The notes under the pieces are model-generated. The model ran no database searches, was not told the origin of the DNA, and worked only from the letters and a program-made list of their open reading frames with translations. This document shows, in pieces, positions 5,333 to 54,858 of a stretch of DNA of 64,000 nt. How positions within the stretch are numbered: position 1 is the stretch's first letter; each line of letters opens with the position of its first letter. Position numbers and translations under genes: made by a program. Origin of the DNA: Deltaproteobacteria bacterium. Its GTDB lineage: Bacteria; Myxococcota; JADLHZ01. The stretch lies in contig JADLHZ010000108.1 of the NCBI GenBank assembly GCA_020848545.1, positions 1 to 64,000 of the forward strand, written 5' to 3'.

Positions 5333-7699
5333 TTAATTCCTGTCGGCGCCGGCGAAGGCGACCACCCATACCAGCGCGAAAAACAACGACAATCCGAGCC
5401 CGACCACGACCGCGACGCCGAGCGCTTCGATCTCGGACAGTGGTACGGCGAGCAGCGCCGAAAAGCCCGCGAGTGTCGTCAGCGTGCTCGCAAAGAGCGG
5501 CCGTAGGTGCGCGCCCAAGAGCTCCGTCGCCGAGCGTCGATACGCCGCGTGCGCGACGAGGTACACCGTCGCGTCGACGCCGATGCCGAGCACGAAAGGA
5601 AAGACGAGCACCGTCACCAGGGTGAGCCGCACGTGTAGCAAGCCGAGCGCGAACCACAGGCTCGTGAACACGAGGAGCAGCGCGCAAATGGCGATGAGCG
5701 CTTCACGCATGCCGATGCGGGCGATGACCAGCGCCGCCATGACGCCGAGCAACGCGAGCAAGGTGAGCTGCGCCGCGTCTTTTGGCAGCAGCCGCTCGAG
5801 CTCGCGATCGACGAGCAGCGGCCCCGCGAGCTCCACCGTCGCGTCTTCGATCTTAGTCGCAACGACGACGTGCCGCACGCGCGCGATCGCCGCGTCCGCA
5901 TCGCCGTCCTTCACGAAGAACGACACGAGCGCGGTGCCATCGTCGTAGGCCGCGCGGTCGGAGAAGAAGCGGGTAAACGTCGGCATCGGCGCTTCGGACA
6001 CGGTCAACGCCTTCAAGCGCTCGAGCCCGGCCGCGAACGCCGCCGTGTCGAAGCCTTCGGCCGCGATCGCCGCTTCGAGATCGCGCGCGACGATCGCCGG
6101 TGGCCGCGCGGCATAGAGCGCACGGGCGGCGGCGAGATCCGACTTCGTCGGCGCCGCCAGCGCGAAGCCTTCGACGGCGACGGACTTCTCGGCGGCGAGC
6201 GCGCGCTGCAAGGTGCGCTGCGCCCTCGCGGCCGCGTCGCGATCCTTCGCTTCGATCAACAAGAACGCGTGGCGCGACGACGCACCGAACGCCTTCTCGA
6301 AGGTCGCTTGGCCCTTGGCGCCGGCAAAGCTCGGATCGATGAGCGCGGAGAACCCGAACGCGTGCTCGGGCGGCTTGCCGAGAAAGAAGAGGACGACGAC
6401 GACGCCGACAGCGATCGCCATGAGCACCTGCGGCGGCAGCGCGCCAAGGGTCAGGCCGAAGCGCTCGATGAGGCCGCGCCGCGGATGATCTTTCGGCCAG
6501 CCGCGCGCCAGCCGGCCGCCGAGCGAGAAGCCGAGCGGCAAGACGGTGAACATGGCGATCGTGTTCGCGGCGACGCCGAGCGCGAGCAGCGCCCCGAACT
6601 GTCGGAACGCCCGCACCTCGGCCGTCGTGAACGCCAGGAAGCCGAGGAGCGCCGCCAACGCCGCGGTGGCGATCGGCTTCTTGACGCGCGCGAACGCTTC
6701 TTTCAGACGCGCCTGGAACGGCTGCTTCGAGCTCGTTTCTTTGAGCGCGGCGAACGCCTGCACGCCGGCGTCGATGCCGACCGCGGGCAGGATCGACGCA
6801 GCGCTGACCGCGAGGATCTGCAGCTCGCCAAAGAGCAGGCTCGCCGCACCGAGCGTCCAAGCCGCGGCCGCAGCGAGCGCGAGCGCGATGGCGATGAGCG
6901 CGCCGATGTCACGGAAGAGAAAGAGCCCGACGAGCACGACGAGGCCAATCGACAGCGCGCCGCTCAACGCGAGGCCGCTCTGCAAACGCCGTTGGTACTC
7001 TGCGGCGAAGATGTGCGGGCCCGTCGCAGTCACGGTCACTCCGCGAGGCAACAGTTGGTCTCGCAGGCTCTCGACTGTCGCGAAGAGCTTGCGCGCGGTG
7101 TCGGCGTCGCTCGCGGGCTTCTTCGGCTTCACGAAGACGCACGCGATCGCCGGCTCACCGACGAGCACGTAGCCGGTCGTGAAGTCGATCTTCGTCGTCG
7201 CACTGGCGAGGGTCGACGAGAGCAGCTCGACGAGACCGAGCGGATCCTTCAGCGCCTGCGCCATCATCGCCGAGCCGCCCGGCAGCACCGCGCGTGCTCG
7301 CAACGCCTGCGCCCGATCGCGCAGCCCTTCCGGACTCACGCGCCGGATGAACGCCTCTTGCGCATTCGCCGCGAGCAGCGGGTAGGCCAAGCCGAGCAAT
7401 TGCTCCGCCTCGTCCTCGGCCGCTTTGTACGCGACGGCTTCGACCTCGGGCATCCGCTGGAAACGCGACGCGACCTCACCGATCGTCCACAGCTGACTTT
7501 CGAGCGTGCCCTCGATCATCACGAGCACGATCTCCTGGCGTTCGAGCACGCCGGCGAGCTTCTTGAACGCGCGGGCGTCGGCGCTGCGATCCGGGAGCGC
7601 CGCGTGCGGGCGCATGTCGAAGCGCAGGCCGAAGACCGCGGGCAGGAGCACGGCCGAGAGCACGACGATCGCGAGCCGGACGAGGTTGCCGCGGGTCAT
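5333..7699 (-). CDS. MMPL/RND-type lipid exporter of the polyene-like cluster
   Basis: About 788 residues from the ATG at 7699, which overlaps the stop of the LolA-like gene by four bases; a longer reading of the frame would add an Arg-rich leader that is not credible. The layout is that of an RND/MMPL permease: one N-terminal membrane helix, a large periplasmic domain, a bundle of five helices, then the same again. Such proteins export lipids or polyene pigments, and paired with a LolA-like carrier they are typical of aryl-polyene and xanthomonadin clusters. It is the last gene of the unit running from 15687. Confidence 0.85.
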   Translation of the reverse strand: MTRGNLVRLAIVVLSAVLLPAVFGLRFDMRPHAALPDRSADARAFKKLAGVLERQEIVLVMIEGTLESQLWTIGEVASRFQRMPEVEAVAYKAAEDEAEQLLGLAYPLLAANAQEAFIRRVSPEGLRDRAQALRARAVLPGGSAMMAQALKDPLGLVELLSSTLASATTKIDFTTGYVLVGEPAIACVFVKPKKPASDADTARKLFATVESLRDQLLPRGVTVTATGPHIFAAEYQRRLQSGLALSGALSIGLVVLVGLFLFRDIGALIAIALALAAAAAWTLGAASLLFGELQILAVSAASILPAVGIDAGVQAFAALKETSSKQPFQARLKEAFARVKKPIATAALAALLGFLAFTTAEVRAFRQFGALLALGVAANTIAMFTVLPLGFSLGGRLARGWPKDHPRRGLIERFGLTLGALPPQVLMAIAVGVVVVLFFLGKPPEHAFGFSALIDPSFAGAKGQATFEKAFGASSRHAFLLIEAKDRDAAARAQRTLQRALAAEKSVAVEGFALAAPTKSDLAAARALYAARPPAIVARDLEAAIAAEGFDTAAFAAGLERLKALTVSEAPMPTFTRFFSDRAAYDDGTALVSFFVKDGDADAAIARVRHVVVATKIEDATVELAGPLLVDRELERLLPKDAAQLTLLALLGVMAALVIARIGMREALIAICALLLVFTSLWFALGLLHVRLTLVTVLVFPFVLGIGVDATVYLVAHAAYRRSATELLGAHLRPLFASTLTTLAGFSALLAVPLSEIEALGVAVVVGLGLSLFFALVWVVAFAGADRN

Positions 7700-8268
7700 T
7701 TGTCGATGTCGAAGGTGCCGGGGGGAACGACCGCGTCGCACGCGTCGAGCACGATGACGCTCCTATCGCCGTTCTTCTCGGCGAGCTCGAGCGACTTCGG
7801 CGCCGCGCTTCCGTTTCTTGGCGCGACGCCGAGGCGGATCTCGTCGAGAAACTGAAACGCGTCGCCCTTCGGCTTCAACACGAGCGTCGTCGCGTCGGAG
7901 CAGGCGAGCGAGAACTCCTTCTCGAGCTCCTTCAGCTTGCCGACGAAGAGGCCGGAGAACGCGCCGAGGAACGCGTTGACCTTCGGCAGCTTGTCGAGCG
8001 GCAGCGTGTCGACGTCGCCACCGTTCTTCATCTTGGCGACGCCGTCTTTGACGACGAAGGCCGACCCGGACGGCGCCAGCGTGTCGAAGCGCAGGCTGCC
8101 GGCGCTCGTCACCCACAGCTCGCCATGCGACTGCATCTTCTTCTTGAACAGCTTCGACGTCTTCGTCTGCGTGTAGCGGCAGTGCACCTGCGGCTGCGTG
8201 CTCAACGACGAGGCGATCCCCTTCGCATCGCAAGTGCCGGCCGCGACCAACAGAACGAGCGCGATCAT
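7696..8268 (-). CDS. LolA-like periplasmic lipid carrier
   Basis: 190 residues with a short signal peptide ending near AAGTCDA. The body has the LolA look: an early VHCRYTQTKTSKLFKK strand with basic residues, then LWVTSAGSLRFD, and repeated antiparallel strands. LolA-fold proteins ferry lipids across the periplasm; those beside MMPL exporters in polyene clusters are thought to accept the exported product. The ATG at 8268 overlaps the upstream stop by four bases, and its own stop overlaps the exporter start by four bases, so all three are translationally coupled. Confidence 0.8.
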   Translation of the reverse strand: MIALVLLVAAGTCDAKGIASSLSTQPQVHCRYTQTKTSKLFKKKMQSHGELWVTSAGSLRFDTLAPSGSAFVVKDGVAKMKNGGDVDTLPLDKLPKVNAFLGAFSGLFVGKLKELEKEFSLACSDATTLVLKPKGDAFQFLDEIRLGVAPRNGSAAPKSLELAEKNGDRSVIVLDACDAVVPPGTFDIDK

Positions 8269-9626
8269 TTGCCCGGGCTCCGCCAGCCGATGTCTTTGCC
8301 GAGTTCGAGCGCGACGGCGTCCTTCGGCATCGCTTGCGCCCGCTCGAAGCGGCCTTCGAACAAGGGCGCGAGCGCGATGCCCACCCACTCGCCCGAGAGG
8401 TGCGGCGCGCGGCTCACCCAGACGACGTCTTTTCCGAAGTCGGCGAAGACGCCGTGGGTCGCAATGTAACCATCGAGCGCGCGGCGATCGCCCATGGGGT
8501 AAGGCGCGCCGTCGGGCGCGAGACGATCGCGCAAGATGACGAGGGCGTCCTCCGGCTCGCGCTTGGTCGCCGCTTGCGTCACGAGCTGCGTCATCCGCTC
8601 GAAGCGCACGAGCGAGCTCGTCTTTCGCTCGAGCTCTTGGTTGCGCCGCTCGGCGCGCAGCTCCGGGTCCAAGAAGTGGTTGGCGACGGCGATGCGCCCG
8701 TTCTCGGCGCTGCGCACCACGGCCGCCACCGGCGTCTTCTCGACGACGTAGACGTGCTTCGCATCGGCGACCAAGTAGAGGTCGGCCACGCGCACGGGCA
8801 TCTGCTTGATGCGCTCGACGGCGGCTTCGGCGCTGTCCGCTTGCTCGAGCACTTGCCGGATCGCGAGCGACACCGGCACGCCGCGCGGCGCCTCGTGGTC
8901 GCTGCGCGCCGCATTCACGCTCACCCACACGCGCTTCTCGTTGATGCCGGTGACGACGCCGTTCATGCCCGGCCAGGCGACGCTCATGAAGGCGTAGCCG
9001 CTCTCGGGGCGAAACACGGTGACCGACTTCTGCTCGTCGAAGACGCGCCCGGCCTCGAAGTCGAAGTTTCTGCCGACGATGGTGCCGCCGGACGCGCTCA
9101 TCGTCGCGTCGAAGCCGAAGCCAGTGCAGGCGACGAGCGGCGACTTTTCCACCGTCTGCGCGAGGTCATGCAGCGCGAGGTAGGCCATGAAGCGCGCAAA
9201 CTTGCCGCCGCCGTCGCCGAAGGGATCGTCGTAGTGCGACATCTGGCCCACGATCTCGCGCTGGATCTCGAGCGGGATGTCGGTCGTCAGATGGCGGCCG
9301 AAGAGGCGGCCGGCAATCTCGATCGCGAAGCGGAGCGGCGCGCTCGGGATCACCTCGCGGAACGTGGCGTGCATCGTCTCGTCGATCTGGCGCATCACGT
9401 GGCCGACGAGCTTCGCCATGTCGGCGCCGCGCACCTCGGGCGGCCCGGAGAGCCAAATGAACCACACGTCGTCCGCGCGCAGCGCTTTGCCCGGGCCTTG
9501 CTTCGTCAGGTCGGCCTGAACGATCGGCGGCTTCGGCGTGGCGCGGTCCAAGAAGATGGCGAGCGTGAGCCCGCCGCACAAAGCGAGCAACGCGAAGACA
9601 GCGAGTAAGCGTCTCAAGAATCGCAT
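8265..9626 (-). CDS. C45-family Ntn-hydrolase (acyltransferase/amidase), membrane-anchored
   Basis: 453 residues. An N-terminal hydrophobic segment (about 8-26) anchors or exports it. The hallmark is Cys167 in ACTGFG, followed 20 residues later by GRNFDFE, the pattern of peptidase family C45 (isopenicillin N acyltransferase-like) in which autocleavage exposes the Cys as N-terminal nucleophile. Residues 1-166 would be the propeptide chain. C45 enzymes transfer or hydrolyse acyl groups on amines. The gene overlaps the fusion gene upstream (13 bases) and the LolA-like gene downstream (4 bases), so it belongs to the polyene-like unit. I do not know it as a standard member of such clusters. Confidence 0.8.
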   Translation of the reverse strand: MRFLRRLLAVFALLALCGGLTLAIFLDRATPKPPIVQADLTKQGPGKALRADDVWFIWLSGPPEVRGADMAKLVGHVMRQIDETMHATFREVIPSAPLRFAIEIAGRLFGRHLTTDIPLEIQREIVGQMSHYDDPFGDGGGKFARFMAYLALHDLAQTVEKSPLVACTGFGFDATMSASGGTIVGRNFDFEAGRVFDEQKSVTVFRPESGYAFMSVAWPGMNGVVTGINEKRVWVSVNAARSDHEAPRGVPVSLAIRQVLEQADSAEAAVERIKQMPVRVADLYLVADAKHVYVVEKTPVAAVVRSAENGRIAVANHFLDPELRAERRNQELERKTSSLVRFERMTQLVTQAATKREPEDALVILRDRLAPDGAPYPMGDRRALDGYIATHGVFADFGKDVVWVSRAPHLSGEWVGIALAPLFEGRFERAQAMPKDAVALELGKDIGWRSPGK

Positions 9627-10954
9627 GTGATCTCACCTAGGGCTTCGGCTTCCGGCGGCGCGTCGAACGCGATCTCGTCGTTGAGGATGTGCAGCTTGGC
9701 GCGCGTGCCGATCGTCACATCGAGCTCGTGCGGCATGTACGAGCCGTCGACGACATCGAAGGCGTTCACCTGCACCGTCAGCTCGCCCGACGCGATCGCC
9801 GAGAACGCCGGCGCGCTCTGGTGCAACGACGCGCTGACGCCGCCGCCCTCGTAGACGTTGTCGTCCCAGGCGCCGTTCTGCGGCAGCGACAATGCAGCGA
9901 GCAGCTCGGCCACGGGGAAGAACTGCACCTTTTCGCGCGCTTCCGCCAGGGTCCCAGTCGCGCTCTTGTCACGGGCGTCTACCTTGAACTTCCCGCAGCG
10001 GACGGCCACGTCGAAGGCGGTGACACCCATCGGTCCAAGCACGCGCAAGCGATAGCCCCGGCCCGGATAGACGATGAAGAGCCCGCTCGCCTTGCGCTTG
10101 TCTTTGCCGGTTTCGAACACGATCGTCTGCTGCGCCGAGAACGGCCGCGCGGCCGCCTTCAATGCCTCCTGCTGCTGCCACGCCGACGGCTTTACGACGA
10201 TGACATCGTGTTGGTCCAAACCGAGAACGTCGCCCCTGTTCACCGCCGGCGCGCAGGCAGTGAACAACGCCAGCGCCCACAAAAAGCGCGGCAGGAACAG
10301 AAAGCGCATGACGAGAAACACGATGCGCGTCGCGTCACGCGACGGCACGAAGTGGCTCACGCGCTCCCCGGGCGGCGGATAGTAGACGTCGACGTCGGCG
10401 CCGACGATCGGCCGCTTGGCGCGCTTGTGGCGAATGAGCACCTCGGTCTCGAACTCGTAGCCGGTGCCGCGAAAGTGGTGCCTGCTGACGACGCTCGCCG
10501 GATAGACGCGCAGGCCGCACTGGGTGTCCGCAAACTTCGTGCCCATCGCGAGGTTGACCCAGAAATTCGACACGGCGTTTCCGAAGCGGTTCTTCTCGGG
10601 CATCTTCTCGTAGCGGCGCTGGCCCAAGATGATCGCGTCGGGCGCGGCAGCGGCAGCCTTCACGAGCACCGGGATGTCTTTCGGCTCGTGCTGGCCGTCG
10701 CCGTCGATGGTGAGAACGTGCGTGTAGCCTTCGGCCTCGGCGGTCTTCAGCGCCGTCTTCAGCGCCTCGCCTTTGCCCTTGTTCACGTCGTGGCGAACGA
10801 TGCGCGCGCCGGCGCCCTTCGCGTTCGTCTCCGTCGCGTCCGTCGAGCCGTCGTTGACGACGAGCACCTCCGGCGCATGCGCGAGCACGCCGCGCACGAC
10901 CGCGGCGATCGATCGTTCGTTATTGTACGTGGGGATGGCGACGAGGAGCTTCAC
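9614..10954 (-). CDS. Family 2 glycosyltransferase fused to a LolB/DUF3261-like lipoprotein
   Basis: Residues 1 to about 215 are a GT-A glycosyltransferase of family GT2: VAIPTYNNERS at the start, VVNDGSTDAT, and the metal-binding TIDGDGQHEP. At residue 216 the frame runs without a stop into what looks like a complete lipoprotein: a basic-hydrophobic segment from Met216, a lipobox-like ALFTAC with Cys234, then a beta-rich domain of about 210 residues resembling the DUF3261/LolB-like lipoproteins of aryl-polyene clusters. The start is GTG at 10954, nine bases after the thioesterase. The second half may be made as part of the fusion or from the internal ATG at 10309, where I see no clear ribosome-binding site. 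Confidence 0.75.
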   Translation of the reverse strand: MKLLVAIPTYNNERSIAAVVRGVLAHAPEVLVVNDGSTDATETNAKGAGARIVRHDVNKGKGEALKTALKTAEAEGYTHVLTIDGDGQHEPKDIPVLVKAAAAAPDAIILGQRRYEKMPEKNRFGNAVSNFWVNLAMGTKFADTQCGLRVYPASVVSRHHFRGTGYEFETEVLIRHKRAKRPIVGADVDVYYPPPGERVSHFVPSRDATRIVFLVMRFLFLPRFLWALALFTACAPAVNRGDVLGLDQHDVIVVKPSAWQQQEALKAAARPFSAQQTIVFETGKDKRKASGLFIVYPGRGYRLRVLGPMGVTAFDVAVRCGKFKVDARDKSATGTLAEAREKVQFFPVAELLAALSLPQNGAWDDNVYEGGGVSASLHQSAPAFSAIASGELTVQVNAFDVVDGSYMPHELDVTIGTRAKLHILNDEIAFDAPPEAEALGEITCDS

Positions 10955-10963
10955 GTCACACGC

Positions 10964-11446
10964 TCACTCTGGGCGCGCAGCCGTGCCGAGCGCATAGGCC
11001 GTCATCGCTTCGAAGCCGGCCGCCACCGACTCCGGCACGTGGTAGAGCAGGCCGCCGTCCAAGCGCGTGAACACCTGCCGCGTGGTGCCGCGCGCGAGCA
11101 CGGTTTGCTCGCCCACCGCACGCACGATCCGAAAGTGCGTGTCGATCATGGCGCCGCGCACGCGCAGCATGGCGGCGTCGACCGCGATCGCCTCGTCAGC
11201 GCGGCCCGGCGCCTTCAGATCCATGTTCACGTTGACGACAGGCATCACGAAGCCGTGGCGCGCGAACTGGCCGAAGTGAATGTCGAAGCGCTTCAAGAGA
11301 TCGAGCCGCGTCTGATCGACGTAGCTGAAGTAGTGGCCGTGCCAAACGAGGCCCCAAGAGTCGACGTCACGAAACGGGATGCGCATCGCCACGCGGTGCC
11401 AGTGCTTGACCTCGCCGAAGGGCTCTGGCTTCCGAGCGCGGTTCAT
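10964..11446 (-). CDS. Hotdog thioesterase (4HBT/YbgC type)
   Basis: 160 residues. The conserved start RIPFRDVDSWGLVWHGHYFSY matches the active-site Asp-x-D-x-x-G-x-V-x-x-x-x-Y pattern of 4-hydroxybenzoyl-CoA-type thioesterases. These hydrolyse acyl-CoA or acyl-ACP thioesters. The ATG at 11446 shares one base with the stop of the ketosynthase-like gene (TGATG), so it is coupled to it. In aryl-polyene clusters a thioesterase of this type sits in the same neighbourhood, which supports the cluster assignment. Confidence 0.85.
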   Translation of the reverse strand: MNRARKPEPFGEVKHWHRVAMRIPFRDVDSWGLVWHGHYFSYVDQTRLDLLKRFDIHFGQFARHGFVMPVVNVNMDLKAPGRADEAIAVDAAMLRVRGAMIDTHFRIVRAVGEQTVLARGTTRQVFTRLDGGLLYHVPESVAAGFEAMTAYALGTAARPE

Positions 11447-12423
11447 CAGCGGCCCAGCGCCAGGAGCACCGCGGCCGCGCCCGAGTCCTCGTCGGCGTCG
11501 AGCACGAGCACGCGCCGCGCCTCGCCACGCCGGATCTTCGCTGCCGCCCACGCCGCCTCGATCAAGTTGCGCACGTCGAGCTCGCCGACGCGGTCGCACA
11601 GAGAGACGATCGCCGCGCCGCTCTGCGCGACGAATTTTTGCAGTGCGTGCGTGTGGCGCGGGTGCGTGACCACGAGCTCGACGCCGGCCGTCTCGGCTTG
11701 CTCCAGGCAGCTCTTCGCGGCGCTGACGAGGCCGTCGCTGGCGCCGAGGCCGTTCATCGCCACGCCGGCCACGCGGATGCCGTCGTCCTCGCCCTCTGGC
11801 GCGCGATCCAAGATGAGCGCCGCGGCGCCTTCGCCGAGCACGACCTCGGAGCGGTTCAAGAGCTCCGCCGATCGCGTGCGGCCCACGCTGTGCTCCTCGG
11901 CACCGGCGACGAGCGCGACGTCGAGGCGGCGCGAGCGCAGCGCTTCAGCCGCGACGCACACGGCGTGCAGGCCCGAGAGCCGCCCTTGGTTCAGCGCGAA
12001 CACCTCGCCCTTGAAGCCGAACTGAAACGACAAGCTCCCGGCCGGCGCCGAGATGACGAGGTTCGGAAATTCGATCGGGCTCGCCAAGCGCGCGCCCTTT
12101 TGGTGCAGCTTGTCGAGGAAGCCCATCGTGCCCGAGAAGTTCCCCTGCCCCGTGGCGAAGAACACCCCGGCGCGCTCGGCCGCGAAGGCATCGAGCTTCG
12201 CCGCTCGCATCGCTGCGCCCGCGGCGACGATGGCGAGCTCGCTCAAGCGGTCGAGCCGGCGCGGCGCTTTGTCGGCAAAGATCTCACGCATGAGCGTGGC
12301 GTGCGCCGGCACCGAAAACGGGCGCTCGGTCGCGGCGACCGCAGACGCCACGACGTCGCGCGCGGGATCGTCGCAGGCGAGGCCGTGAGCGGTCAGCGTG
12401 GCTTGCGCGCGCAGGCGGATCAT
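11446..12423 (-). CDS. Ketosynthase-like partner without catalytic Cys (chain-length-factor type)
   Basis: 325 residues with the thiolase/ketosynthase fold: GVFFATGQG, FPNLVISAPAGSLSFQFG and VLGEGAAALILD segments. Where active ketosynthases have A-C-S-S-G this protein has G-R-L-S-G, putting Arg148 in place of the nucleophilic Cys. The second catalytic His region is also poorly conserved, and the protein is shorter than a full ketosynthase. This is expected of a chain-length factor that forms a heterodimer with the active ketosynthase, which is encoded immediately upstream with a 4-base overlap. Confidence 0.8.
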   Translation of the reverse strand: MIRLRAQATLTAHGLACDDPARDVVASAVAATERPFSVPAHATLMREIFADKAPRRLDRLSELAIVAAGAAMRAAKLDAFAAERAGVFFATGQGNFSGTMGFLDKLHQKGARLASPIEFPNLVISAPAGSLSFQFGFKGEVFALNQGRLSGLHAVCVAAEALRSRRLDVALVAGAEEHSVGRTRSAELLNRSEVVLGEGAAALILDRAPEGEDDGIRVAGVAMNGLGASDGLVSAAKSCLEQAETAGVELVVTHPRHTHALQKFVAQSGAAIVSLCDRVGELDVRNLIEAAWAAAKIRRGEARRVLVLDADEDSGAAAVLLALGR

Positions 12424-13607
12424 CGCGCTGTCTCCGGTCCGCCCACGACGAGCGCAGAGTTCTGCCCGCCGAAAGCGAAGCTGTTCTTCATCAAGTAGCG
12501 GAGCTCGCGGCGAAGCGGCGCGCCCATCACGTGCTGGATCTCCGCGCACGCGGGATCGACATTGTCTGGGCTCAGCCCGTGCGTCGGATAGACGTGCTGG
12601 TCTTCGAGCATCGCGATGCACGCGGCGAGCTCGAGCGCGCCGGCCGCCCCGAGCGTGTGCCCGAGCTGTGACTTCTGCGACGACACCGGCACGTTCTTGC
12701 CGAACACCGCGGCCACGGCCTTCGCCTCCATCGCGTCGTTCTGCTGTGTCGCCGTGCCATGCGCGCTGACGGCGTCGATCGCGGTCGCGTCGAGCTTGCC
12801 GTCCTCGAGCGCGAGCCGCATCGCCCGCGCGGCACCGGCGCCCGAAGGATCCGGCTGCGTCGCGTGGAACGCCTCGCCGATGATCGCCGAGCCGGCGACG
12901 ACTCCGCGCGCGCGACGGCCGGCCCTGTGCGCGTCGTCCTTGCGCTCGACGAGGAACGCCGCGGCGCCTTCGCCGATCGTGATGCCCTTCCTCTCTTTCT
13001 GAAACGGCCGCGCGCCTTCGCCGTCGACCGCGCCGAGCGACGCGAAGCCGACGAGGGTCAGGCGGCTCAACGCATCGGCGCCGATCGCGAGCACGGTCTG
13101 ACACAAGCCGAGCTCGATCCACCGCCGTGCCAAGATCACGGCGTTCAGGCCGCTCGAGCACGCGCTCACGACGGTCGTGCGCGGACCGAACAAGCCGAGC
13201 TTGCGCGCCACGAGGTTCGTCGTCTCGCTCACCGGATGCTCCCGGGCGATGCGCGCGTCGAAGGCGGCGGTGCCGGTGTGGGGAGCGTCGAGCACCGTCG
13301 CTTCCGTCAGCGCCATGCCGCCCGTCGTGCTGCCGACGATGACGCCGATCTGCCGGCGCGCGTCTTCGGGCACTTCGGCGAGCGCTTCTTTGGCGGCGAG
13401 CAGCGCCAAGGTCGCGCTGCGCGAGTGCGGCTCGTCGGGTTGAAAGATGCCGTCTGGCACCGCGCACACCGGGTGCTGAGGGCAGCGCACGCTGTCGAGC
13501 AACGCCCAGGGCGCGAACGATCGCTTGCCCGACGCGAGCCCGTGCTTCAACGCGGAAAAGCCGAGGCCGTAGCCGCTGACCGCGCCGACGCCGCTCAACA
13601 CGATCAT
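12420..13607 (-). CDS. 3-ketoacyl-ACP synthase (FabF-like), catalytically complete
   Basis: 395 residues from the ATG at 13607, which overlaps the preceding stop by four bases. The triad is intact: Cys150 in SACSSG, His283 in AHGTATQQND, and His317 in KSQLGHTLGAAG with the conserved Lys312. The closing FAFGGQNSALV loop is also typical. It would condense malonyl-ACP with the growing chain in the cytoplasm. Its pairing with a Cys-less partner resembles type II PKS and aryl-polyene systems, where the pair sets chain length. Confidence 0.9.
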   Translation of the reverse strand: MIVLSGVGAVSGYGLGFSALKHGLASGKRSFAPWALLDSVRCPQHPVCAVPDGIFQPDEPHSRSATLALLAAKEALAEVPEDARRQIGVIVGSTTGGMALTEATVLDAPHTGTAAFDARIAREHPVSETTNLVARKLGLFGPRTTVVSACSSGLNAVILARRWIELGLCQTVLAIGADALSRLTLVGFASLGAVDGEGARPFQKERKGITIGEGAAAFLVERKDDAHRAGRRARGVVAGSAIIGEAFHATQPDPSGAGAARAMRLALEDGKLDATAIDAVSAHGTATQQNDAMEAKAVAAVFGKNVPVSSQKSQLGHTLGAAGALELAACIAMLEDQHVYPTHGLSPDNVDPACAEIQHVMGAPLRRELRYLMKNSFAFGGQNSALVVGGPETAR

Positions 13608-14053
13608 GCGGCACCCAAGTGCGCCACGACGATCTGCGCGGTGGCGATCACCGTCTCGCCGCCGTTGTCCCTGCGCACGGCTTTGGCGGCGTACCACCAC
13701 AGCTTGGCGAAGGTGCGGTGGTGCTTGACCTGCATCGTCACCATGTCCGAGCAGCGCACGTCGCCGAAGAACTCGGCGTCCTTCAGCAAGGCCAAGACGC
13801 CGCTTTGGGTGGCCTCGAAGCTCTGATGCGCGAGCACCGCCGAAGCCTGCGCCAGCGCTTCGAGGACGAAGGTACGCGGCACGATGGGATCGGCCGTGCC
13901 ATCGGCGAGGTAAGGATTGTCGGCCGAGAAGCGGGCCGCGACGACGTAGCCGTGGGCATCGCCCTGACCGGCGCCCGGGACGAAGAGGAAAGGCTCGCGA
14001 TGGGGGATGGAGACCACGTTCACGCCCCGATTACATGAGCCCGCCGTCGACAC
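13604..14053 (-). CDS. Hotdog dehydratase-like protein, active-site His missing (ApeP-like)
   Basis: Up to 149 residues. It begins like FabZ/FabA proteins (IPHREPFLFV) and has the later PRTFVLEALAQAS helix with the conserved Glu65 (numbering from the ATG). The GHFP motif is absent: by spacing, Asp51 stands where FabZ has its catalytic His. It may be a structural subunit or use a different residue. The ATG at 14053 would overlap the ketoreductase by 23 bases; a GTG at 14023, just before the IPHREPF segment, is an equally plausible start with a seven-base gap. Confidence 0.7.
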   Translation of the reverse strand: MSTAGSCNRGVNVVSIPHREPFLFVPGAGQGDAHGYVVAARFSADNPYLADGTADPIVPRTFVLEALAQASAVLAHQSFEATQSGVLALLKDAEFFGDVRCSDMVTMQVKHHRTFAKLWWYAAKAVRRDNGGETVIATAQIVVAHLGAA

Positions 14054-14759
14054 TCAAGACCGCCGCGTGCATGTAACGCGCGCGCAGCAAGAGAGCGGCA
14101 GCCGCCGAGACTTCCTCGGGTTTTCCAAAGCGTTCCATCGCGATCCTCGCGCGCAGCTCCGTCTGCACCGCCTCCGGCAGCGCCCGCACCATGTCGGTGT
14201 CGATGACGCCCGGGAGCAGCGCATTCACCCGCACGCCGGCCGCCCCCACTTCTTGGGCCAAGGTCGTCGTAAACGCGAGCAGCGCGCCCTTTGCCGCAGC
14301 ATACGCCGTTTGCCCGGGTCGCCCGCGAAAAGCCGACGGAGAGACGACGTTGATGATGCAGCCGCTGCGCTTGGCGATCATTCCCTTCAAGGTCGCCCGC
14401 ACCATGTGCATCGCGCCGAAGAGGTGCACCTGCATCAACTCTGCGCTGGCGGCTGGATCGCTGAAGAGAAAGAGCGCGTCTTTGACGAGGCCGGCGTTGT
14501 TGACGAGCACCTCGACGCGGCCACCGAGCGCTTCCTCGAGCTCCTTCACCGCGCGCTTGCAGGCCTCGGCGTCAGCGACGTCGGCCTTGGCGACGGCAAC
14601 TTTGACCGAGGTCTGCTCGCGGATCTTCGACGCCGCACGTTCCGCGGCAGCATCATCGGACGCGTAGATGAGCCCGACATCCAAGCCGTCCTTGGCGAAG
14701 CGCTCGGCGATCGCGAGGCCGATGCCGCGGGTGCCGCCGGTGATGAGCGCGGATGCCAA
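14031..14759 (-). CDS. 3-ketoacyl-ACP reductase (FabG-like SDR)
   Basis: 242 residues from a TTG start at 14759, five bases after the previous stop; this gives the normal FabG N-terminus (ASALITGGTRGIG), whereas a longer frame adds an unrelated leader. The NADPH-binding GxxxGxG, the NNAG motif, and the Ser-Tyr-Lys set (SPSAF...QTAYAAAKGA) are all present. It ends in a typical SDR tail (LSVDGGLM). Within the unit it should reduce the beta-keto group after each condensation. Confidence 0.85.
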   Translation of the reverse strand: MASALITGGTRGIGLAIAERFAKDGLDVGLIYASDDAAAERAASKIREQTSVKVAVAKADVADAEACKRAVKELEEALGGRVEVLVNNAGLVKDALFLFSDPAASAELMQVHLFGAMHMVRATLKGMIAKRSGCIINVVSPSAFRGRPGQTAYAAAKGALLAFTTTLAQEVGAAGVRVNALLPGVIDTDMVRALPEAVQTELRARIAMERFGKPEEVSAAAALLLRARYMHAAVLSVDGGLM

Positions 14760-14764
14760 GGGAA

Positions 14765-15220
14765 TCAGAGGTTGCGGAAGGCGGCGCCCCACAGCGCGAA
14801 CCAGACGACGACCGCAACGATGGTGATGACGGCCGGGATGCCGACGCCGAGGCCGACCGCAAGGCCGATGGTCTTGCCCATCGAGATCGAGCGGGCCTGC
14901 GCGCTCGTCACCTGCGCGAGGTCGATGTTGACGGGCGCGCCGCTGCCGCGGACGACGCCGGTCATCGTCGAGCCGTTCACCTGCACCGAGGAGTACTTCG
15001 CGCTCATCGCCTGGCCGTCGGCCGCTTGCACGCTGAGCTGCGTCTTCGCGTTGAACTTGACGTTGTCGCCATCGACCGAGGTGAGCATCACCGTCTGGCC
15101 TTCGCGATACCCGTTGAGCTTGTAGAGCTCCTGCGGCGCGATCATGTGGTTGTTGTAGCAAGCGCCGGTGACGGTCATGAGCAAGATGACTGCGAGCAAC
15201 ATCGAGAGGCTTTTCTTCAC
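14765..15220 (-). CDS. Small lipoprotein with C-terminal membrane helix
   Basis: 151 residues, GTG start at 15220 with a good AGGAG six bases upstream. A signal peptide ends in a lipobox-like VTGAC (Cys21). The middle is a small Ser/Val-rich domain (NVKFNAKTQLSV...), and the last 35 residues form a Gly-rich hydrophobic helix (IGLAVGLGVGIP...). No family recognised. It lies between the FabZ-like and FabG-like genes on the same strand, so it may act in export or assembly of the polyene-like product, but its role is unknown. Confidence 0.65.
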   Translation of the reverse strand: MKKSLSMLLAVILLMTVTGACYNNHMIAPQELYKLNGYREGQTVMLTSVDGDNVKFNAKTQLSVQAADGQAMSAKYSSVQVNGSTMTGVVRGSGAPVNIDLAQVTSAQARSISMGKTIGLAVGLGVGIPAVITIVAVVVWFALWGAAFRNL

Positions 15221-15255
15221 GGTGTCTCCTGTTAAGGTCGAAATCGCGGGCCCAG

Positions 15256-15687
15256 CTAGCCCGGCTGTGCACCAGGATCAATCAACTTCATACGAACGGT
15301 GAGGACTTCTTTGCCCCCGCAGGTGATCTCGCCTTTGTGCTCGGCGCCGGCTGTGATCATCACATACCCGAGCTCGTCGTTCGGGTGGGCTTCGCTGCGA
15401 AACTTCGCTTCGATCAAGTGCGCGAGCGTGCGGCGCGTGCCCGTCGAGCGTTCGTAGAGCGCGATGAGCCCCTCGATCATGATCACGCCCGGGACTACCG
15501 GACGGGCGGGAAAGTGGCCGGCGAAAAACTTTTCGTCGGCATTGAAGCGCACGCGGCAGGAACAGGTGTCCCCTGTGGTCGCGAGTGACCCTTCGACGAG
15601 GCCGATGAGCCGCGCAGGCCGCCACAACGGCTTCGCCGCCGGCGGACGCTCGGCTTTTGTCTGCTGCGTTTCGCTCGTCTCGTTCAT
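15256..15687 (-). CDS. 3-hydroxyacyl-ACP dehydratase (FabZ-like)
   Basis: 143 residues of hotdog fold. The active site is intact: FFAGHFPARPVVPGV with His58 and, 14 residues on, Glu72 in IMIEGL. FabZ-type enzymes remove water from 3-hydroxyacyl-ACP; repeated without enoyl reduction this gives a conjugated polyene. It is the first gene of the minus-strand unit that runs to 5333 and is divergent from tex, with 115 bases between them that should hold both promoters. The first 20 residues are low-complexity and probably disordered. Confidence 0.85.
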   Translation of the reverse strand: MNETSETQQTKAERPPAAKPLWRPARLIGLVEGSLATTGDTCSCRVRFNADEKFFAGHFPARPVVPGVIMIEGLIALYERSTGTRRTLAHLIEAKFRSEAHPNDELGYVMITAGAEHKGEITCGGKEVLTVRMKLIDPGAQPG

Positions 15688-19826: not shown

Positions 19827-20945
19827 ATGGGCCGCCCCATGCGCATCCCGCCGTTTCGGCTCGAACAGTTCTTCGCCCGCTACGAGTTCAACGTCGCGCA
19901 CCTGCTCTGCGCGTCCGACGTGGAAGGCGTTCCCCTCGCCGAGCTGCTCGCGCTCGCCGACCCCGAGACGCGCACGCGCTACGACGGCTTGAAGCTCGGC
20001 TACACCGAGGCGTGGGGCGACCCGCTGCTGCGAGCGGAGATCGCGCGCGACTACGCGAAGATCGATCGCGAGCACGTGCTCGTGTGCGGCGCGCAGGAGG
20101 CGATCTTTCTGACGATGAACACGCTGCTCGGCCCGGGCGACCACGCGATCGTGGCATTTCCGGCGTACCAGTCGTTGTACGAAGTGGCGCGCGCGGCCGG
20201 CGCCGACGTGACCCTGCTGCGGCTCGAAGCCGGCGCCGGTTGGCAGATCGATCCGCAGGCGCTGAAGAGGGCGCTGAGGCCGACGACGAAGCTCATCGTC
20301 GTCAACTATCCGCACAACCCGAGCGGCGCGCTGATCACCCAGGAGACGCAGCGCGAAGTCGTCGCCGTCGCGCGCGAGGCCGGCGTGCACCTCTTCTTCG
20401 ACGAGGTCTATCGCTTCTTGGAGCACGACCGGAACGAGCGCCTGCCGCCGGCGGCCGATCTCTACGACAAGGCGATCAGCTATTCGGCGTTCTCAAAGGC
20501 GTACGGCCTCGCCGGGCTGCGCCTCGGCTGGCTCGCGACGGAGGATCGCGCGCTGCTCGAACGCATCTTGGCGATGAAGGACTACACGAGCATCTGCCAA
20601 AGCGCGCCGAGCGAGGCGCTCGCGTTGATCGCCCTGCGCGCCAGGGACAAGCTCGTCGCGCGATCGCTCGAGATCATCCGCACGAACCTCGAGCTCTGCG
20701 ACGCGTTCTTCGCCGAGCACGAGGACGTCTTCGCGTGGAAGAGACCCAAGGCGTCGAGCGTCGCCCTCGTGCGCTACAAGCGGCCCGAGCGCGCCGACGC
20801 GTTCGTCGAGCGCCTCGTGCAAGCGACCGGTGTGCTGCTCCTGCCGGCGAGCGCGTTCGAGCTCGACACGAACGATCTGCGCATCGGCTTCGGGCGGCGG
20901 GGCATGGCGGCGGGGCTGGAGAAGCTCGGGGCCTATCTCGTGTAG
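19827..20945 (+). CDS. PLP-dependent aminotransferase, class I/II
   Basis: 372 residues; an ATG four codons in (19839) is an alternative start. The fold-type I pattern is clear: VLVCGAQEAIF, the NYPHNPSG motif that holds PLP, FFDEVYRFLE with the PLP-nitrogen-binding Asp, and SAFSKAYGLAGLRLGW with the Schiff-base Lys near residue 225. The C-terminal Arg that binds the substrate carboxylate is likely in LRIGFGRRG. The substrate cannot be predicted. The end overlaps the convergent hydrolase gene by 13 bases. Confidence 0.88.
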   Translation: MGRPMRIPPFRLEQFFARYEFNVAHLLCASDVEGVPLAELLALADPETRTRYDGLKLGYTEAWGDPLLRAEIARDYAKIDREHVLVCGAQEAIFLTMNTLLGPGDHAIVAFPAYQSLYEVARAAGADVTLLRLEAGAGWQIDPQALKRALRPTTKLIVVNYPHNPSGALITQETQREVVAVAREAGVHLFFDEVYRFLEHDRNERLPPAADLYDKAISYSAFSKAYGLAGLRLGWLATEDRALLERILAMKDYTSICQSAPSEALALIALRARDKLVARSLEIIRTNLELCDAFFAEHEDVFAWKRPKASSVALVRYKRPERADAFVERLVQATGVLLLPASAFELDTNDLRIGFGRRGMAAGLEKLGAYLV

Positions 20946-22816
20946 CTCGCGGCCGGCACCGCGTCGAAGAGATCGAGCGCCGCGTCGATGTCGGCCTGCG
21001 AAAGCTGGTGCACGCCAGGGCCGTCGACCAAGCGGTGCTTCCAGCCCGCGCGCTCGAGCTTCGCCGAGAGCCAATATGTGTTCGGTCGCTCGCCGCCGTC
21101 GCCCTTGCTCGTGATGATCACGGTCGGGATCGCGTCGGCCTTCGCGAAGTCGAACGCGGCGCCGCCGGCGTGCGCGAGCGCCCACGCCGAGAACTCGAGC
21201 CGCGTCTTCGACAGGAGCGCCGCCGAGAGATAGCCGCCGACCGAGTAGCCGAAGAGGTAGGGCTTCTTCGCCCGCGACTCCAACGCGAGGGAGAGGTTCA
21301 TCATCACCGGTCCGAGCTCCGCCGACAGCTTCGCGACGTCCATCGTCTGCGCGTTCGTCGACGGAAAGCCGAGCCAGGCCGGCGCCGACGCCACCGCCCC
21401 GAGCACGCCCCGCGGCGCATACACGAAGTAGCCGCGCGCGCGCGCAGCGTCGACGAAGCGCTTCTCGTCGGCGAACACCCACGGTCCGCCGTGCGGATTG
21501 TAGAGCCCGTGGAGGAACAGGATGATCTTGTCCTTCTTCGTGCCGCGCGCGAGGCACAGCCCGTCGCCGACCGTCTCGTCGTAAAACGGCGGGCAGCGCC
21601 GCGCCGGATGCATGAACAGCCGCGCGCGCTCGCTCGCGTTGAACGGCGCGCCACCGCTCTGCGCCACGAGCCGTACGACGACCGTAGGCGCCGTCCCTGG
21701 CTCGCGCACGCACATCATCAGCTGGCCTCGGCTGCCGGAGTGTCCGAACGCTTCGACGTCGCTCGTTTCGAAAGATGGGCGCACGCCGTCGAGCACGCGC
21801 CGCGCGACGAGGTCCGCGAGCTGCCCCCGCTCGGCGTCATCCATGAGCGCCGCCATCTGCAGCACGAGCGCATCGACATCCTCGAAGCGGCGGCCCTTCA
21901 GCGGCGCGAGCTTCTTGCCGACCTCGAGCCCGCCGGCGACGAGGCGGGCTTCGACGACGCCGTCGTAGACGATGGCGCCGCGCTTGTAGCCCATTTCGGG
22001 AAAGAGCTCGACGCCCATGCCGTACACTTGCTGAAACGGCGCCGCCGGCTTCACCGCGTCGGCGATCCACTGCGCCGGGACCACCTGCTTGCCGCCGAAG
22101 GCACCGTTGTCGCAGAGCATCGCGCCGATCTTCGCCACGTCACGCGCGCGCAAGCTCAACCCAGCGTGCCCGTGCGTGCGGCCGCTGCGATCGGCGGTCC
22201 ACGACGGCGCCTCGATGCCGAGCGGCGAGAGGATGCGCTCCGTGACGAAGCGCGCGAGCGTCATGCCGCTCTCCTTCTGCACCACCTCCGACAAGAGCTC
22301 GAACGCCTGGTTCGAATAAATGTACGTCGAGCCCGGCGCATCCGCGAGCCGCATGCTCGCCACGAAGCGCACGCTGTCCGGCACCTCCTGCAGCTCGGCG
22401 TCGCCCATCCGCGGCTCGAGGCCGGTCATGTGCGAGAGGGCGTGGCGCAGGGTGATCGCCGCGTGAGGGCCCTTCTTCCACTCCGGGATCCAGCGCGAGA
22501 GCGGCTCGTCGACCGACGCGATCTTCTTGTCGGCGACGAGCAGCGCGATCGCGAGACCACTCAGAACTTTGGCGATCGACGCGACGTGGATCGCCTTGTC
22601 CTTGTCATGGGCCCAGTAGCGCTCGGCGGCGACCTTGCCGCCGCGCAAGATCACGACGGCGCTCGTCTTCGCGGCGCCGGCGTCACGCAAGAACGCGCGC
22701 AGCTCGTCTTCGTCGAAGTCCTGCGTCGACTCGGCGGCGGGCAGAAAGCCGGTGAGCCCCGGATCGCGCAGAGGCTCCGGCGCCGAGAGCAGCAACACGC
22801 ACAGCGACAGAATCAT
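20933..22816 (-). CDS. Fusion of class C beta-lactamase-like serine hydrolase with an alpha/beta hydrolase
   Basis: 627 residues, ATG with GGAG eight bases upstream, and a short signal peptide. Residues about 35-400 are a serine beta-lactamase-like/EstB domain: S80-I-A-K83 (SxxK), the YSN motif in IYSNQAFELL, and GHSGSRG in place of KTG. Residues about 425-620 are a separate alpha/beta hydrolase: LFLHGLYNPHGG oxyanion strand, nucleophile elbow GYSVGG, and a C-terminal His in GPGVHQL. The protein is therefore a secreted two-active-site hydrolase, probably acting on esters or peptides in the periplasm. Confidence 0.85.
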   Translation of the reverse strand: MILSLCVLLLSAPEPLRDPGLTGFLPAAESTQDFDEDELRAFLRDAGAAKTSAVVILRGGKVAAERYWAHDKDKAIHVASIAKVLSGLAIALLVADKKIASVDEPLSRWIPEWKKGPHAAITLRHALSHMTGLEPRMGDAELQEVPDSVRFVASMRLADAPGSTYIYSNQAFELLSEVVQKESGMTLARFVTERILSPLGIEAPSWTADRSGRTHGHAGLSLRARDVAKIGAMLCDNGAFGGKQVVPAQWIADAVKPAAPFQQVYGMGVELFPEMGYKRGAIVYDGVVEARLVAGGLEVGKKLAPLKGRRFEDVDALVLQMAALMDDAERGQLADLVARRVLDGVRPSFETSDVEAFGHSGSRGQLMMCVREPGTAPTVVVRLVAQSGGAPFNASERARLFMHPARRCPPFYDETVGDGLCLARGTKKDKIILFLHGLYNPHGGPWVFADEKRFVDAARARGYFVYAPRGVLGAVASAPAWLGFPSTNAQTMDVAKLSAELGPVMMNLSLALESRAKKPYLFGYSVGGYLSAALLSKTRLEFSAWALAHAGGAAFDFAKADAIPTVIITSKGDGGERPNTYWLSAKLERAGWKHRLVDGPGVHQLSQADIDAALDLFDAVPAASYTR

Positions 22817-22893: not shown

Positions 22894-25800
22894 TCACTTT
22901 GACTTGCCGATCACCTTCGGGCCGACCAGCTTCGGCGCGTCGACTTGCGCCTCGACGATGTTCGCCTTCACGTTGGCGGTCACCGTCGTACCGTTGAGCG
23001 CGAAGGCGCCGTCCGGCGCGAGCTCGAAGCTGTCGATGACGACCAGCACCTCGCCCTTCGAGCCTTCGACGCGCAGGAGCCGCACACCGGCGGCGACCTG
23101 CAAGCCGCCCTTCGGCACGTAGGTCGACGTGCGCGCACGCAAGGTCATCTTGCCCTTCACGGTAGCGAAGGCGTCGCCCTGCGCGCGCTTGTAGCTCGAC
23201 ACCTCGAAGTTGCCCTCGGTGCCGGGCACGATGTTCAATTGGATGCCGCTCGGCAGCACCAGGTTGCCCGACGCCAACGCGAGCGTCAGCTTTCCGGCAG
23301 GCGTGCCGTCCGGTAGCGTGTTGCCGGCGATGATCGTGTCGGTCGGCAGGGCAACGTCGCCGAACTCCATCTCGGCGACGACCATCTCGGCCTTCGAGCC
23401 GCTGCCGATCTCGAACGCGATCGGCGTCTTCGCGCTGCCGAAGCTGCCCTTCGCGATCGACGTCGAGAGGCGCACGTCGCCGTTCAGGCGCATCGAGCTC
23501 TTCTTCGCCGACGGATCGATGTCGATCGTCAGCTTCGCAGCGCCGGCCTTCGCCGTCACCTTGCCGGTCTGCAGGTTGAAGCCCGTCATCCCGAGGTCAC
23601 CGCCGCCGGTCTCGACGTCGGCGCCCTTCAGGTAAGCGTTCACCTTCAGCGCGCCGGTCTTGTCGTCGTACTTCAGGTCGCCGTTGACCGCGCCACCGCC
23701 GATGTCGACCGGGACGGCGACGCCCGCCTTCGTGACGACCATCTGCGACGGCGCCAGCGTGCCGCTGAAGCTCGACAGCGTCGTCTTGATCGACGGCTTA
23801 CCGCCGCCCTTCGTCGTCAGAACGAAAGAGCCCTCGAGCGTCGGGCTCGTCACGTCGATGTAGCCCGCGGGCGGCGCGAAGACCGCACGCTTGGCGTCGA
23901 ACTTTCCTTTGCCGACGATCCCGACGATCATCTCCTGCGCGGCGCCGTCGCCGAAGATCTGAAAGCCGAGGCGCGCGTCGACGGTGGTCTTCAAGCCGTC
24001 GACCATGGCGTTCTCGGCGGTGATCGTCGCGTCGTTCACCTTGACGTCGCCGATGGCGGTGATGCGCCCTTGAGTGCCGACGGAGTCGACGACGATGTCG
24101 ATGGTGCTCGAGCTGTCGATGGTCACCGACGAGGTGCCGCCGAGCGCGATCGGGCTGCCGTCGAGCTTCACGTTCTTGATGTTGGCGGTGACGCCCAACT
24201 TGGCGAGCGTGTCGAGGCTGAAGCTCGGCGCCGCCGCAGGGGTGCCGCTGCCGAGACCGCCGATGCTCATCGCCATCTTGAAGATGTCGACGATGTTGCT
24301 CGGCACCTTCACCGGCTTCGCCAGCGGTGGCTTCGCTGCTTTTTGGATCGCTTCGCTCAGGTTCTTGTCCGGCCACCAGTCGAGATCGATCTTCATGGTG
24401 CCGTCGCTCTCCAAGTAGATGCCCTTGCCGTCTACCCACAACGTTTCATCGAGCACGGGCGAGAAGGTGATCTTCGTCTTGCTGTAGCTGATGTTGCCGC
24501 CGCGCACCGGACACACGAAGTGCATGTAAGTCGAGTTCGGGAACTCGTAGTCGCCGAGCTTCGTGCCCTTCTTGATCGGGATCCAGAGGTCGATGTCGCC
24601 GGAGTCGATCTTCTTGAGGATGTCCTCGGGCGCCGGCGGGACGATCGCTTTGGCCTTGCGGATGTCATCGATCTCTTTCGGCGCCGGCTTCGCCGCCGCG
24701 GGTGCGATCTTCGTCGACGCCTTGCTCCCCGGCAGCGACGGCATCGACGCGAGGTCGAGCTTGCCTTCGATGCGCACGATCTTCACCTTCACGTCGCTCT
24801 CGAGGCCGGCGATCTTGACGATATGAGGCCGCGCGGCCATCGGCACGTCCTTGTACTTCTCGGACTCGTCGGGCGCGACCGTGACGTCTTCGAGGACGAT
24901 GTGCACCTTGCCCCCGGCGCCGCTGAGCTTCGTGATCTTGACGCCCGGGCCGGTGAGCAGCTTCGGATCGACATTGGCGCCGATCGTCGCGTCGAGCTCG
25001 ACGCGACCCTTGAAGCGCGTGCCGTTCTCGTCGCGGATGACCTCGCTGACTTCGACCTTCGCGCGCGCGCCTTTGCTCACCGTCAAGCGCGTGCCGGTCG
25101 TCAGCAAGATGCTGCCGGAGTCGAGCGCCACGTCGAGCGCGCCCTTGCCCTTGAAGTCGACGCCGGCCTTGCCGAAGTTCAACGAGGTGAGGTCCAGCGT
25201 GACATTGGCGCCGGTGGCGATGTCGGCGTGGAACATGCCGCCTTTTTGCCCGACGCCGCCGTCGGCGACCGTGCCCGTGAGATGCAGATCGCCGGTGAAG
25301 CTCGCTTCGCCGTCTCTGTATCGCAGGTTGCCGCCGCCGGTGATCGTCGCCGTCGAGTAGCCGACGCGAAACGCGCCATCGCCGGTCGAGATGCCGTCGA
25401 CGTTCGCTTGCACGTCCGACGTCTTGACGTCGACCGCCATCTTGCCGGCCGCGTCGAGCGTGACCTCGCCGTCAATGAGCGCGCGCTCGATCTTCAGCGG
25501 CGTCTCGCCCGTCGGCGTCGGGATCATGATCGTCGACGGATCGAGGTCGCCCTTGACGCGGCCGACCTTCACCTCCGGGGTACCGATCGGCGCGCCCTTC
25601 AGCGCGTCGAACGAAAGCTTCACGTGTGACTTCTTCTCGCCGTCCTCGCTGTGGCCGAGGTAAGAGTCTCTGAGCGCAATCGTCGTGCCCTTGCCGTCGC
25701 TGAACGAGCCTTCGTTGACGATGGCTTCGACGTCGTTGAGCGTGACGTCGATCTTCTTGACTTCGCGCACCCACTCTTCGCCGACTTTTTTCTTCTGCAT

Positions 25801-27171: not shown

Positions 27172-27314
27172 TGGTGTCTCCAGTAACGTTGTCGGACAAT
27201 TTCCTAAGTAGGCGTCAAAATGTGTGGACGATGTCACCCAATGTGAACTCTGCTTGACACCTCGGGGTGCTGACGCAGGAAGTCAGGCAACTTCAGGGAG
27301 GGGTCGCGCGAGAA

Positions 27315-53952: not shown

Positions 53953-54858
53953 CTACGGGCAGTAGGTGTAGACGTCCTCGTTCTCGGCTTGGCACGGATA
54001 ACCCGTGACGATCGTCTCGTCGTAGTAATCCGCGAGGTCCGGGCACGACAGCGCCGAGAGGCACGAGAACAACGGATAGACGCTCGCTGCGCACTGGAGG
54101 CCCTGCGCCTCTTCGTCGCGCAGCGCTTGCTGGCAGTCGGTCTTGCATTGAGCGAGGTCGACGCTCGGGGCGCAGCCCTTCAAGGTCGTGCAGTAGTCGG
54201 TGCAGGTGCCTTCGCGACCGCCACAAGCGATCTGAAACTCGAAGCTCTCGGCGATGCAGGTGTTCGGATCGTCGTAGGCGGCGCAGCTCGCGATGTCGCC
54301 GATGCATTGGTCGAACGCGGTGTTCTTGCCGAGACACTCGGCGCTGTAGCCGGCCGCTTGCGACGAATAGTCTTGGCAGCCCGTCGTACATGCCGCGACC
54401 GTGCCGGTGAAGGCCGGGTCGCATTGATCGTAGACCGAACAGCTGTCCGAGCACGCTTGCGTCACGGCGCTGCTCGAGCCGGTCGATCCCGTGCTGCCCG
54501 TCGAGCCGGTGCTGCCCGTCGAACCCGTGGAGCCGGTGCTGCCCGTGGAGCCAGTGGTTCCTGTCGAGCCCGTCGAACCCGTGCTGCCCGTCGAACCCGT
54601 GGAGCCGGTGCTGCCGCTCGAGCCCGTGCTGCCCGTCGAGCCAGTAGGGCCCGGCTTCGGCTTCGGCTTCGGAACCGGCGCGGCCGTTTCCTCTTCCTGC
54701 TTCTCTTCCTTGTTGTCGTTGGTGATCGTATCGGTGCCGGGGTTCGTCTGCTGGGTGGCCTTCGGCGTCTCTTTCTTCTGCTGAACCGCAGGGGTTCCGC
54801 ACCCGCTGACGACCATCGAGACGACCAAGGCACCGAAAGCGCTGACAGCGAATTTCAT
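53953..54858 (-). CDS. Collagen-like (Gly-Ser-Thr repeat) Cys-rich lipoprotein
   Basis: 301 residues from the ATG at 54858, which sits just before a signal peptide with lipobox VVSGC. After a charged Glu/Lys/Pro stretch come twenty uninterrupted Gly-X-Y triplets (mainly GST, with GPT, GTT and GSS), then a domain of about 170 residues with some 20 Cys, probably disulfide-bonded ([23 protein letters not shown]). Collagen-like GXY repeats with Thr at Y are known from bacterial surface proteins where Thr can be glycosylated. The protein should be anchored in the outer membrane, possibly as a stalk carrying the Cys-rich head. Confidence 0.82.
54472..54651 (-). repeat. Twenty 9-base GXY triplet repeats
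   Basis: 180 bases made of twenty 9-base units such as GGCTCGACG, with synonymous differences between copies. They encode the collagen-like segment of the surrounding lipoprotein. Confidence 0.9.

Follow-up and report, generated by a model that had tools for sequence, protein, structure and literature searches.

What can an operon make that resembles most of an aryl polyene (APE) gene cluster and yet encodes no acyl carrier protein (ACP)? The question is raised by eleven genes at positions 5333 to 15687 of a 64,000-nucleotide stretch of DNA (hereafter the window) from a Deltaproteobacteria bacterium of the phylum Myxococcota (GenBank assembly GCA_020848545.1, contig JADLHZ010000108.1). The genome, which is myxobacterium-like and branches deeply, is 7.99 Mb in length, is distributed over 163 contigs (denoted C, the window being C108:1-64000) and has a completeness of 100%; the relatives searched are none of them nearer to it than phylum level. 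Our analysis indicates that the operon is likely to contain the bulk of a type II polyketide synthase (PKS)/fatty acid synthase (FAS) pathway of the aryl-polyene kind, whose genes would be spread over two loci at the least and probably over three.

Organization of the operon and its likeness to the ape genes

Reading of the open frames reveals eleven open, collinear genes on the minus strand, running from 15687 to 5333. Pfam and NCBIfam profiles support the domains of the named enzymes, and the small lipoprotein LP1 matches no family. In gene order they are:

15256..15687, minus strand: DH1, FabZ/ApeI-like hotdog dehydratase with intact catalytic motif (PF07977, 3e-10; ApeI-like model, 1e-3; ApeI by blastp, 1e-3)
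14765..15220, minus strand: LP1, small lipoprotein-like protein whose signal peptide carries a Cys (hydrophobic at 4-22 and 121-139)
14031..14759, minus strand: KR, FabG/ApeQ/FlxB-like ketoreductase, TTG start uncertain (TIGR01830 and FlxB models, below cut-offs; ApeQ 34%, 5e-34)
13604..14023, minus strand: DH2, FabZ-like hotdog protein of degenerate form that may fill the ApeP role (FabZ model, 1e-11; weak relative beside the ACP of genome G017)
12420..13607, minus strand: KS, elongating ketosynthase, ApeO-like (ApeO 34%, 1e-54; solved ketosynthase 6qsp_A, 1.6e-47)
11446..12423, minus strand: CLF, KS-like chain-length-factor candidate without nucleophile Cys (profile and residue reading; relative fused to KS in G017 and G040)
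10964..11446, minus strand: TE, 4HBT_2 (YbgC-FadM) thioesterase, ApeK-like (Pfam/NCBIfam; ApeK 36%, 4e-13)
9614..10954, minus strand: GT2 glycosyltransferase resembling the N-terminal half of ApeJ, fused to a lipoprotein domain via a lipobox-like hydrophobic segment (PF00535, 1e-23; PpgS/AglJ models, below cut-offs; ApeJ, 7e-29)
8265..9626, minus strand: C45, N-terminal nucleophile (Ntn)-type acyltransferase/amidase with predicted N-terminal membrane anchor and invariant Cys167 (NF040521, PF03417)
7696..8268, minus strand: LolA-like periplasmic carrier, ApeL (PF03548, 3e-8; ApeL, 7e-9)
5333..7699, minus strand: MMPL/RND-type exporter, ApeM (PF03176, 1e-17; ApeM, 3e-4; 11 hydrophobic segments)

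An earlier note on this DNA had named the same eleven genes and enzymes, which the frames and domains bear out. It had also described most of the junctions as overlapping by 1-13 bases, and six of the ten do, the distances in gene order being +35, +5, +7, -4, -4, -1, +9, -13, -4 and -4. These distances were computed with GTG 14023 as the DH2 start; the starts of KR (TTG, about 14759) and DH2 (GTG, about 14023) are best guesses.

The ape cluster of E. coli CFT073, with gene roles as described in PMC8253772, was used as a yardstick and compared by blastp. Seven of the eleven products match Ape proteins in the expected roles, MMPL and DH1 weakly, and the likeness to APE clusters noticed earlier therefore stands. 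At blastp sensitivity, no direct Ape partner emerges for DH2, LP1, the lipoprotein half of the GT2 fusion or CLF, the last of which matches only ketosynthases, and these weakly. The synthesis set comprises an ApeO-type KS with a KS-like partner lacking Cys, together with a ketoreductase, a pair of hotdog dehydratases and a thioesterase, although the second dehydratase is without its catalytic His motif. Sequence reading places the KS triad at Cys150-His283-His317, whereas CLF has NQGRLSG at the site where KS reads ACSSG and therefore lacks the nucleophile. DH1 retains the FabZ motif GHFPxxPxxPGVxxIE and KR retains YxxxK (YAAAK). DH2 matches profiles weakly as a FabZ/AfsA-like hotdog protein, in which the His motif is gone but the Glu is kept. 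The gene set is APE-type, with a polyene as its putative product.

In the export set, LolA and MMPL match ApeL and ApeM, but the lipoprotein domain of the GT2 fusion could not be matched to ApeN by profile comparison. The N-terminal half of the fusion is ApeJ-like and is followed by a lipobox-like segment (LFTAC) and the lipoprotein domain, at the place where ApeJ runs into an acyltransferase. Among 195 genomes of the phylum, no other protein matches across both halves at E<=1e-20, and matches elsewhere end near residue 245. The lipoprotein half has a standalone paralogue (30%) at C6:52567-53448 (L164:8568-9449, where L denotes a locus), which lies near a FAD reductase-like gene and a GT2-like gene. 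An assignment of this half as ApeN/LolB found no support in profile comparison; the single-sequence AlphaFold model reached a pLDDT of 33. An internal in-frame ATG could yield a separate lipoprotein from the fusion gene.

Carrier protein, acyltransferase and starter genes of the genome

No ACP, ammonia lyase, ligase or lysophospholipid-type acyltransferase (LPLAT) is encoded inside or directly beside the eleven-gene unit, and a hidden ACP in or adjoining the operon was sought and rejected. The earlier note had claimed all four absences. For the lyase and the ligase this is confirmed for the unit; for the carrier protein and the acyltransferase it is correct for the unit but does not extend to the genome. 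A scan of the genome with PF00550, in line with the search for ACP genes that had been proposed, gave 48 matches, many of them in long PKS/non-ribosomal peptide synthetase-like frames, plus several small ACPs. In place of a dedicated ApeE-type ACP inside the cluster, an ApeE-like ACP is found outside the operon at C144:6931-7197. It is 47.7% identical to E. coli ApeE over 86 residues (2e-22), as compared with a match spanning 33 residues only for the FAS-type ACP on C36. In characterised clusters, the aryl starter is loaded onto ApeE (PMC8253772). The other standalone ACPs (the FAS type beside FabG on C36, and those on C66 and C128 in other gene groups) were rejected as partners, being far less ApeE-like.

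The C144 ACP also resembles the ACPs which head C45-containing APE clusters in two other Myxococcota genomes, with identities of 70.6% (G017) and 66.7% (G040); gene order in these clusters is ACP, DH, KS-CLF fusion and then, after a TE in G017, C45. It adjoins a flavin (Trp-halogenase-like) oxidoreductase, the pair spanning C144:6931-8500 (L035), and relatives of both are adjoining genes in the C45-APE cluster of locus L119 (43% for the ACP; 30%, 7e-47 for the flavin enzyme). The pair sits away from any other polyene gene. Because the C144 ACP is like ApeE and like the G017 and G040 cluster ACPs, and is paired with a flavin enzyme, the pathway is probably split rather than ACP-less, and we infer that the ACP and the flavin enzyme would both be part of it.

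Unlike GT2, which is present in the operon, LPLAT is found elsewhere in the genome, on C46, C144 and C12. The C46 gene belongs to an LPLAT-KS-short CLF operon at about 24075-26748 (L048:7076-9749), downstream of an RND efflux operon, and relatives of its LPLAT and KS occur at C45 loci. It has the appearance of a second fragment either of this pathway or of a sister polyene/lipid pathway. The missing parts and the lost His motif of DH2 might also be read as signs of a degenerate, non-functional remnant that has lost its ACP, acyltransferase and starter genes. We consider this highly improbable, as eleven intact frames with tight overlaps retain the catalytic residues of KS, KR, DH1 and C45, and relatives of the missing parts are encoded on other contigs.

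A single aromatic ammonia lyase is encoded in the genome, on the same contig as the operon (C108:140269-141648); it is HutH-like and was rejected as a tyrosine ammonia lyase because it is nearest to histidases. No relative of ApeH was found in this genome, but most C45-APE genomes are equally silent, so this absence is not used as evidence. With no tyrosine ammonia lyase candidate in the genome, the product may not be an ordinary aryl polyene. In a less probable reading, a fatty acyl or acetyl group on the C144 or the housekeeping ACP would prime the KS-CLF/KR/DH set, and the lipid exported to the outer membrane would be a polyunsaturated or modified fatty acyl one without an aryl head. Such a lipid would be in keeping with the missing lyase and ApeH match, with the availability of a FAS-type ACP and with the independence of GT2, LolA and MMPL from an aryl head. 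However, the C144 ACP is of the ApeE kind that takes an aryl starter in characterised clusters (PMC8253772), ApeH is missing in many C45-APE genomes, and other hydroxybenzoate routes and ligation have not been searched.

The C45 enzyme and its neighbours in other phyla

C45 scores 160 bits against NF040521 (cut-off 85) and also matches PF03417. Its AlphaFold model (AF2, pLDDT 86) is nearest in fold to isopenicillin-N acyltransferase (2x1c, 3e-17), followed by NAAA and acid ceramidase. A scan of species genomes yielded 76 C45 loci; Cys167 is present in all 76 aligned rows and is preceded by Gly in 64 and by Ala in 12, the enzyme of the window among the latter. Residues 7-25 are hydrophobic and follow basic residues, which suggests that C45 is membrane-anchored with a periplasmic catalytic domain. 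Because the nearest folds act on N-acyl bonds, our best guess for its role is an amide-forming or amide-cleaving one. An amide linkage in the product, also raised in the earlier note, we infer with the same reserve.

Neighbours of the 76 loci were scored by iterative profiles within about 10 kb. GT2 occurs in 37, LolA in 30, MMPL in 27 and LPLAT in 17 loci, and at least one of these four in 58; these counts and those for KS-bearing loci below are lower bounds, since some contigs end early, and they stand without a background rate, the KS/CLF, KR, ACP and GT2 profiles also catching relatives that are not APE-specific. KS is found near C45 in 26 loci. The earlier note had made its proposal depend on related loci not always carrying the standard ACP and acyltransferase nearby, and most of these 26 do carry them (ACP in 21, LPLAT in 13), though not all. 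C45 stands alongside APE- or flexirubin-type genes in Bdellovibrionota, Planctomycetota, Bacteroidota and Myxococcota. Four Bdellovibrionota loci (L101, L109, L115, L118) have complete-looking APE-type clusters of CLF, KS, ACP, LolA, MMPL, C45, GT2/LPLAT and KR, and the Chryseobacterium loci are flexirubin-like, with a lyase. The APE cluster of F. johnsoniae has already been listed with an acyl-CoA:6-aminopenicillanic acid acyltransferase (C45/AAT) in a study of marine Flavobacteriia (ISME J 2018, PMC5932025), and a literature search joining 'aryl polyene' with 'Ntn hydrolase' found no paper. C45 is an already known, recurrent member of APE-type clusters.

Two further arrangements were seen in the survey. 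MMPL and C45 share one long open frame in Planctomycetota and in two proteobacterial records (L073, L076, L087, L090, L094, L099, L102, L103, L108, L119), and in three Myxococcota loci (L049, L051, L054) a KS-like gene adjoins C45 and a DsbD-like gene, and ACP and Lol/MMPL genes are absent.

The earlier note had suggested that C45 might sit at the acyl-transfer step. In a strong form of this idea, C45 replaces the usual acyltransferase and forms an amide bond, giving a polyene lipid of the N-acyl type that differs from ordinary APE lipids. Its position between GT2 and LolA, the recurrence of a GT2-C45-LolA triad in Polyangiales and the action of the nearest folds on N-acyl bonds are consistent with such a role. 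However, C45 recurs across four phyla, often with ACP and LPLAT, so it is no simple replacement. Many clusters contain both C45 and LPLAT (L053, L073, L101, L107, L109, L115, L118, L119), so that C45 looks additional, and the genome itself carries the LPLAT-KS-CLF operon. We therefore regard a replacement as unlikely.

Proposed pathway and comparison with known systems

In the split pathway that we favour, the growing chain would be carried by the ApeE-type ACP from C144:6931-7197, elongated by KS-CLF and reduced by KR. The hotdog pair DH1(-DH2) would dehydrate it without enoyl reduction to give a conjugated polyene acid, which TE may edit or release. GT2, perhaps with the LPLAT of the C46 operon, would join the acid to a sugar/glycerol lipid anchor. 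At the periplasmic face, the membrane-anchored C45 might make or break an amide bond of the lipid, which MMPL, LolA and the two lipoprotein parts would carry to the outer membrane. In X. doucetiae, the APE lipid includes a galactosamine-phosphate-glycerol moiety as well as a second acyl chain that is conjugated. The structure of this lipid is stated to have been solved (PMC8253772).

Several observations weigh against this assignment. The genes on other contigs are tied to the operon by homology alone, and a clear Ape counterpart is lacking for DH2, CLF and LP1. No starter route was identified, chorismatase, other hydroxybenzoate routes and ligases not having been searched. Eleven of the 76 C45 loci, some on short contigs, have none of the sought genes nearby, so the link between C45 and APE genes is not a strict one. 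In the tree, the C45 of the window forms a long branch with no close sister and an unsure position.

The operon shares with apeA-apeR of E. coli CFT073 the KS/CLF, KR, two hotdog dehydratases, TE, GT2, LolA, MMPL and lipoproteins, as well as overlapping genes in the same direction. In contrast to E. coli, ACP and LPLAT are outside the operon, the unit has no ApeH, ApeB or ApeG, the fusion partner of GT2 is a lipoprotein domain and not an acyltransferase, C45 is present and blastp does not recognise CLF as ApeC. Flexirubin/APE clusters of Bacteroidota (F. johnsoniae, Chryseobacterium, Chitinophaga) have in common with it KS, KR or dehydratase, GT2, LolA and acyltransferase-type genes (PMC5932025, PMC3992019; L107, L123), and those of F. 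johnsoniae and Chryseobacterium also hold C45/AAT; however, Bacteroidota clusters keep ACP, acyltransferase and ammonia lyase inside, and the flexirubin ones use dar genes. In the C45-APE clusters of G017, G040 and Bdellovibrionota, ACP, DH, KS/CLF, (TE) and C45 are likewise grouped, but the ACP gene lies alongside, G017 and G040 have KS and CLF as a fusion, and GT2 is fused to LPLAT in G017 and Bdellovibrionota. The Polyangiales triads (Sorangium, Polyangium, Minicystis and others) place the same three activities side by side, although no KS, KR or DH was detected within 10 kb of them (L067-L069, L074, L077, L078, L080, L083, L096, L097, L112, L113, L120). APE clusters have also been reported in marine myxobacteria (PMC6226438). 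The features that are still unusual here are the GT2-lipoprotein fusion instead of GT2-LPLAT and the absence of any ammonia lyase besides HutH.

The operon is flanked by a cNMP/response-regulator/TPR protein on one side and a Tex-like S1 protein on the other. Elsewhere in the window, the minus strand encodes a serine hydrolase of the beta-lactamase family (PF00144) that seems to be fused to an alpha/beta-hydrolase-like domain (20933-22816), a 1447-aa protein with repetitive, surface-protein-like sequence and no Pfam match (22894-27237), and a lipoprotein-like protein with a long Gly-Ser-Thr collagen-like repeat (53953-54894).

APE clusters rank with the most widespread gene clusters of bacteria, and how the polyene is attached to lipid and exported in these systems is not settled. 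A broader proposal, which we advance tentatively and hold to be doubtful, is that membrane-anchored C45 provides a periplasmic amide-forming or amide-cleaving step for polyene/flexirubin-type outer-membrane lipids in several phyla, the genome of the window being a variant with a GT2-lipoprotein fusion, a distant carrier gene and a lipid that is maybe not aryl-headed. Since C45 recurs in four phyla or more close to genes for glycosyltransferase and for Lol/MMPL export, a role in attachment or trimming is directly testable. Units lacking an ACP should not be read as carrier-free, because pathway genes can be split, and searches that demand a local ACP would miss such split units.

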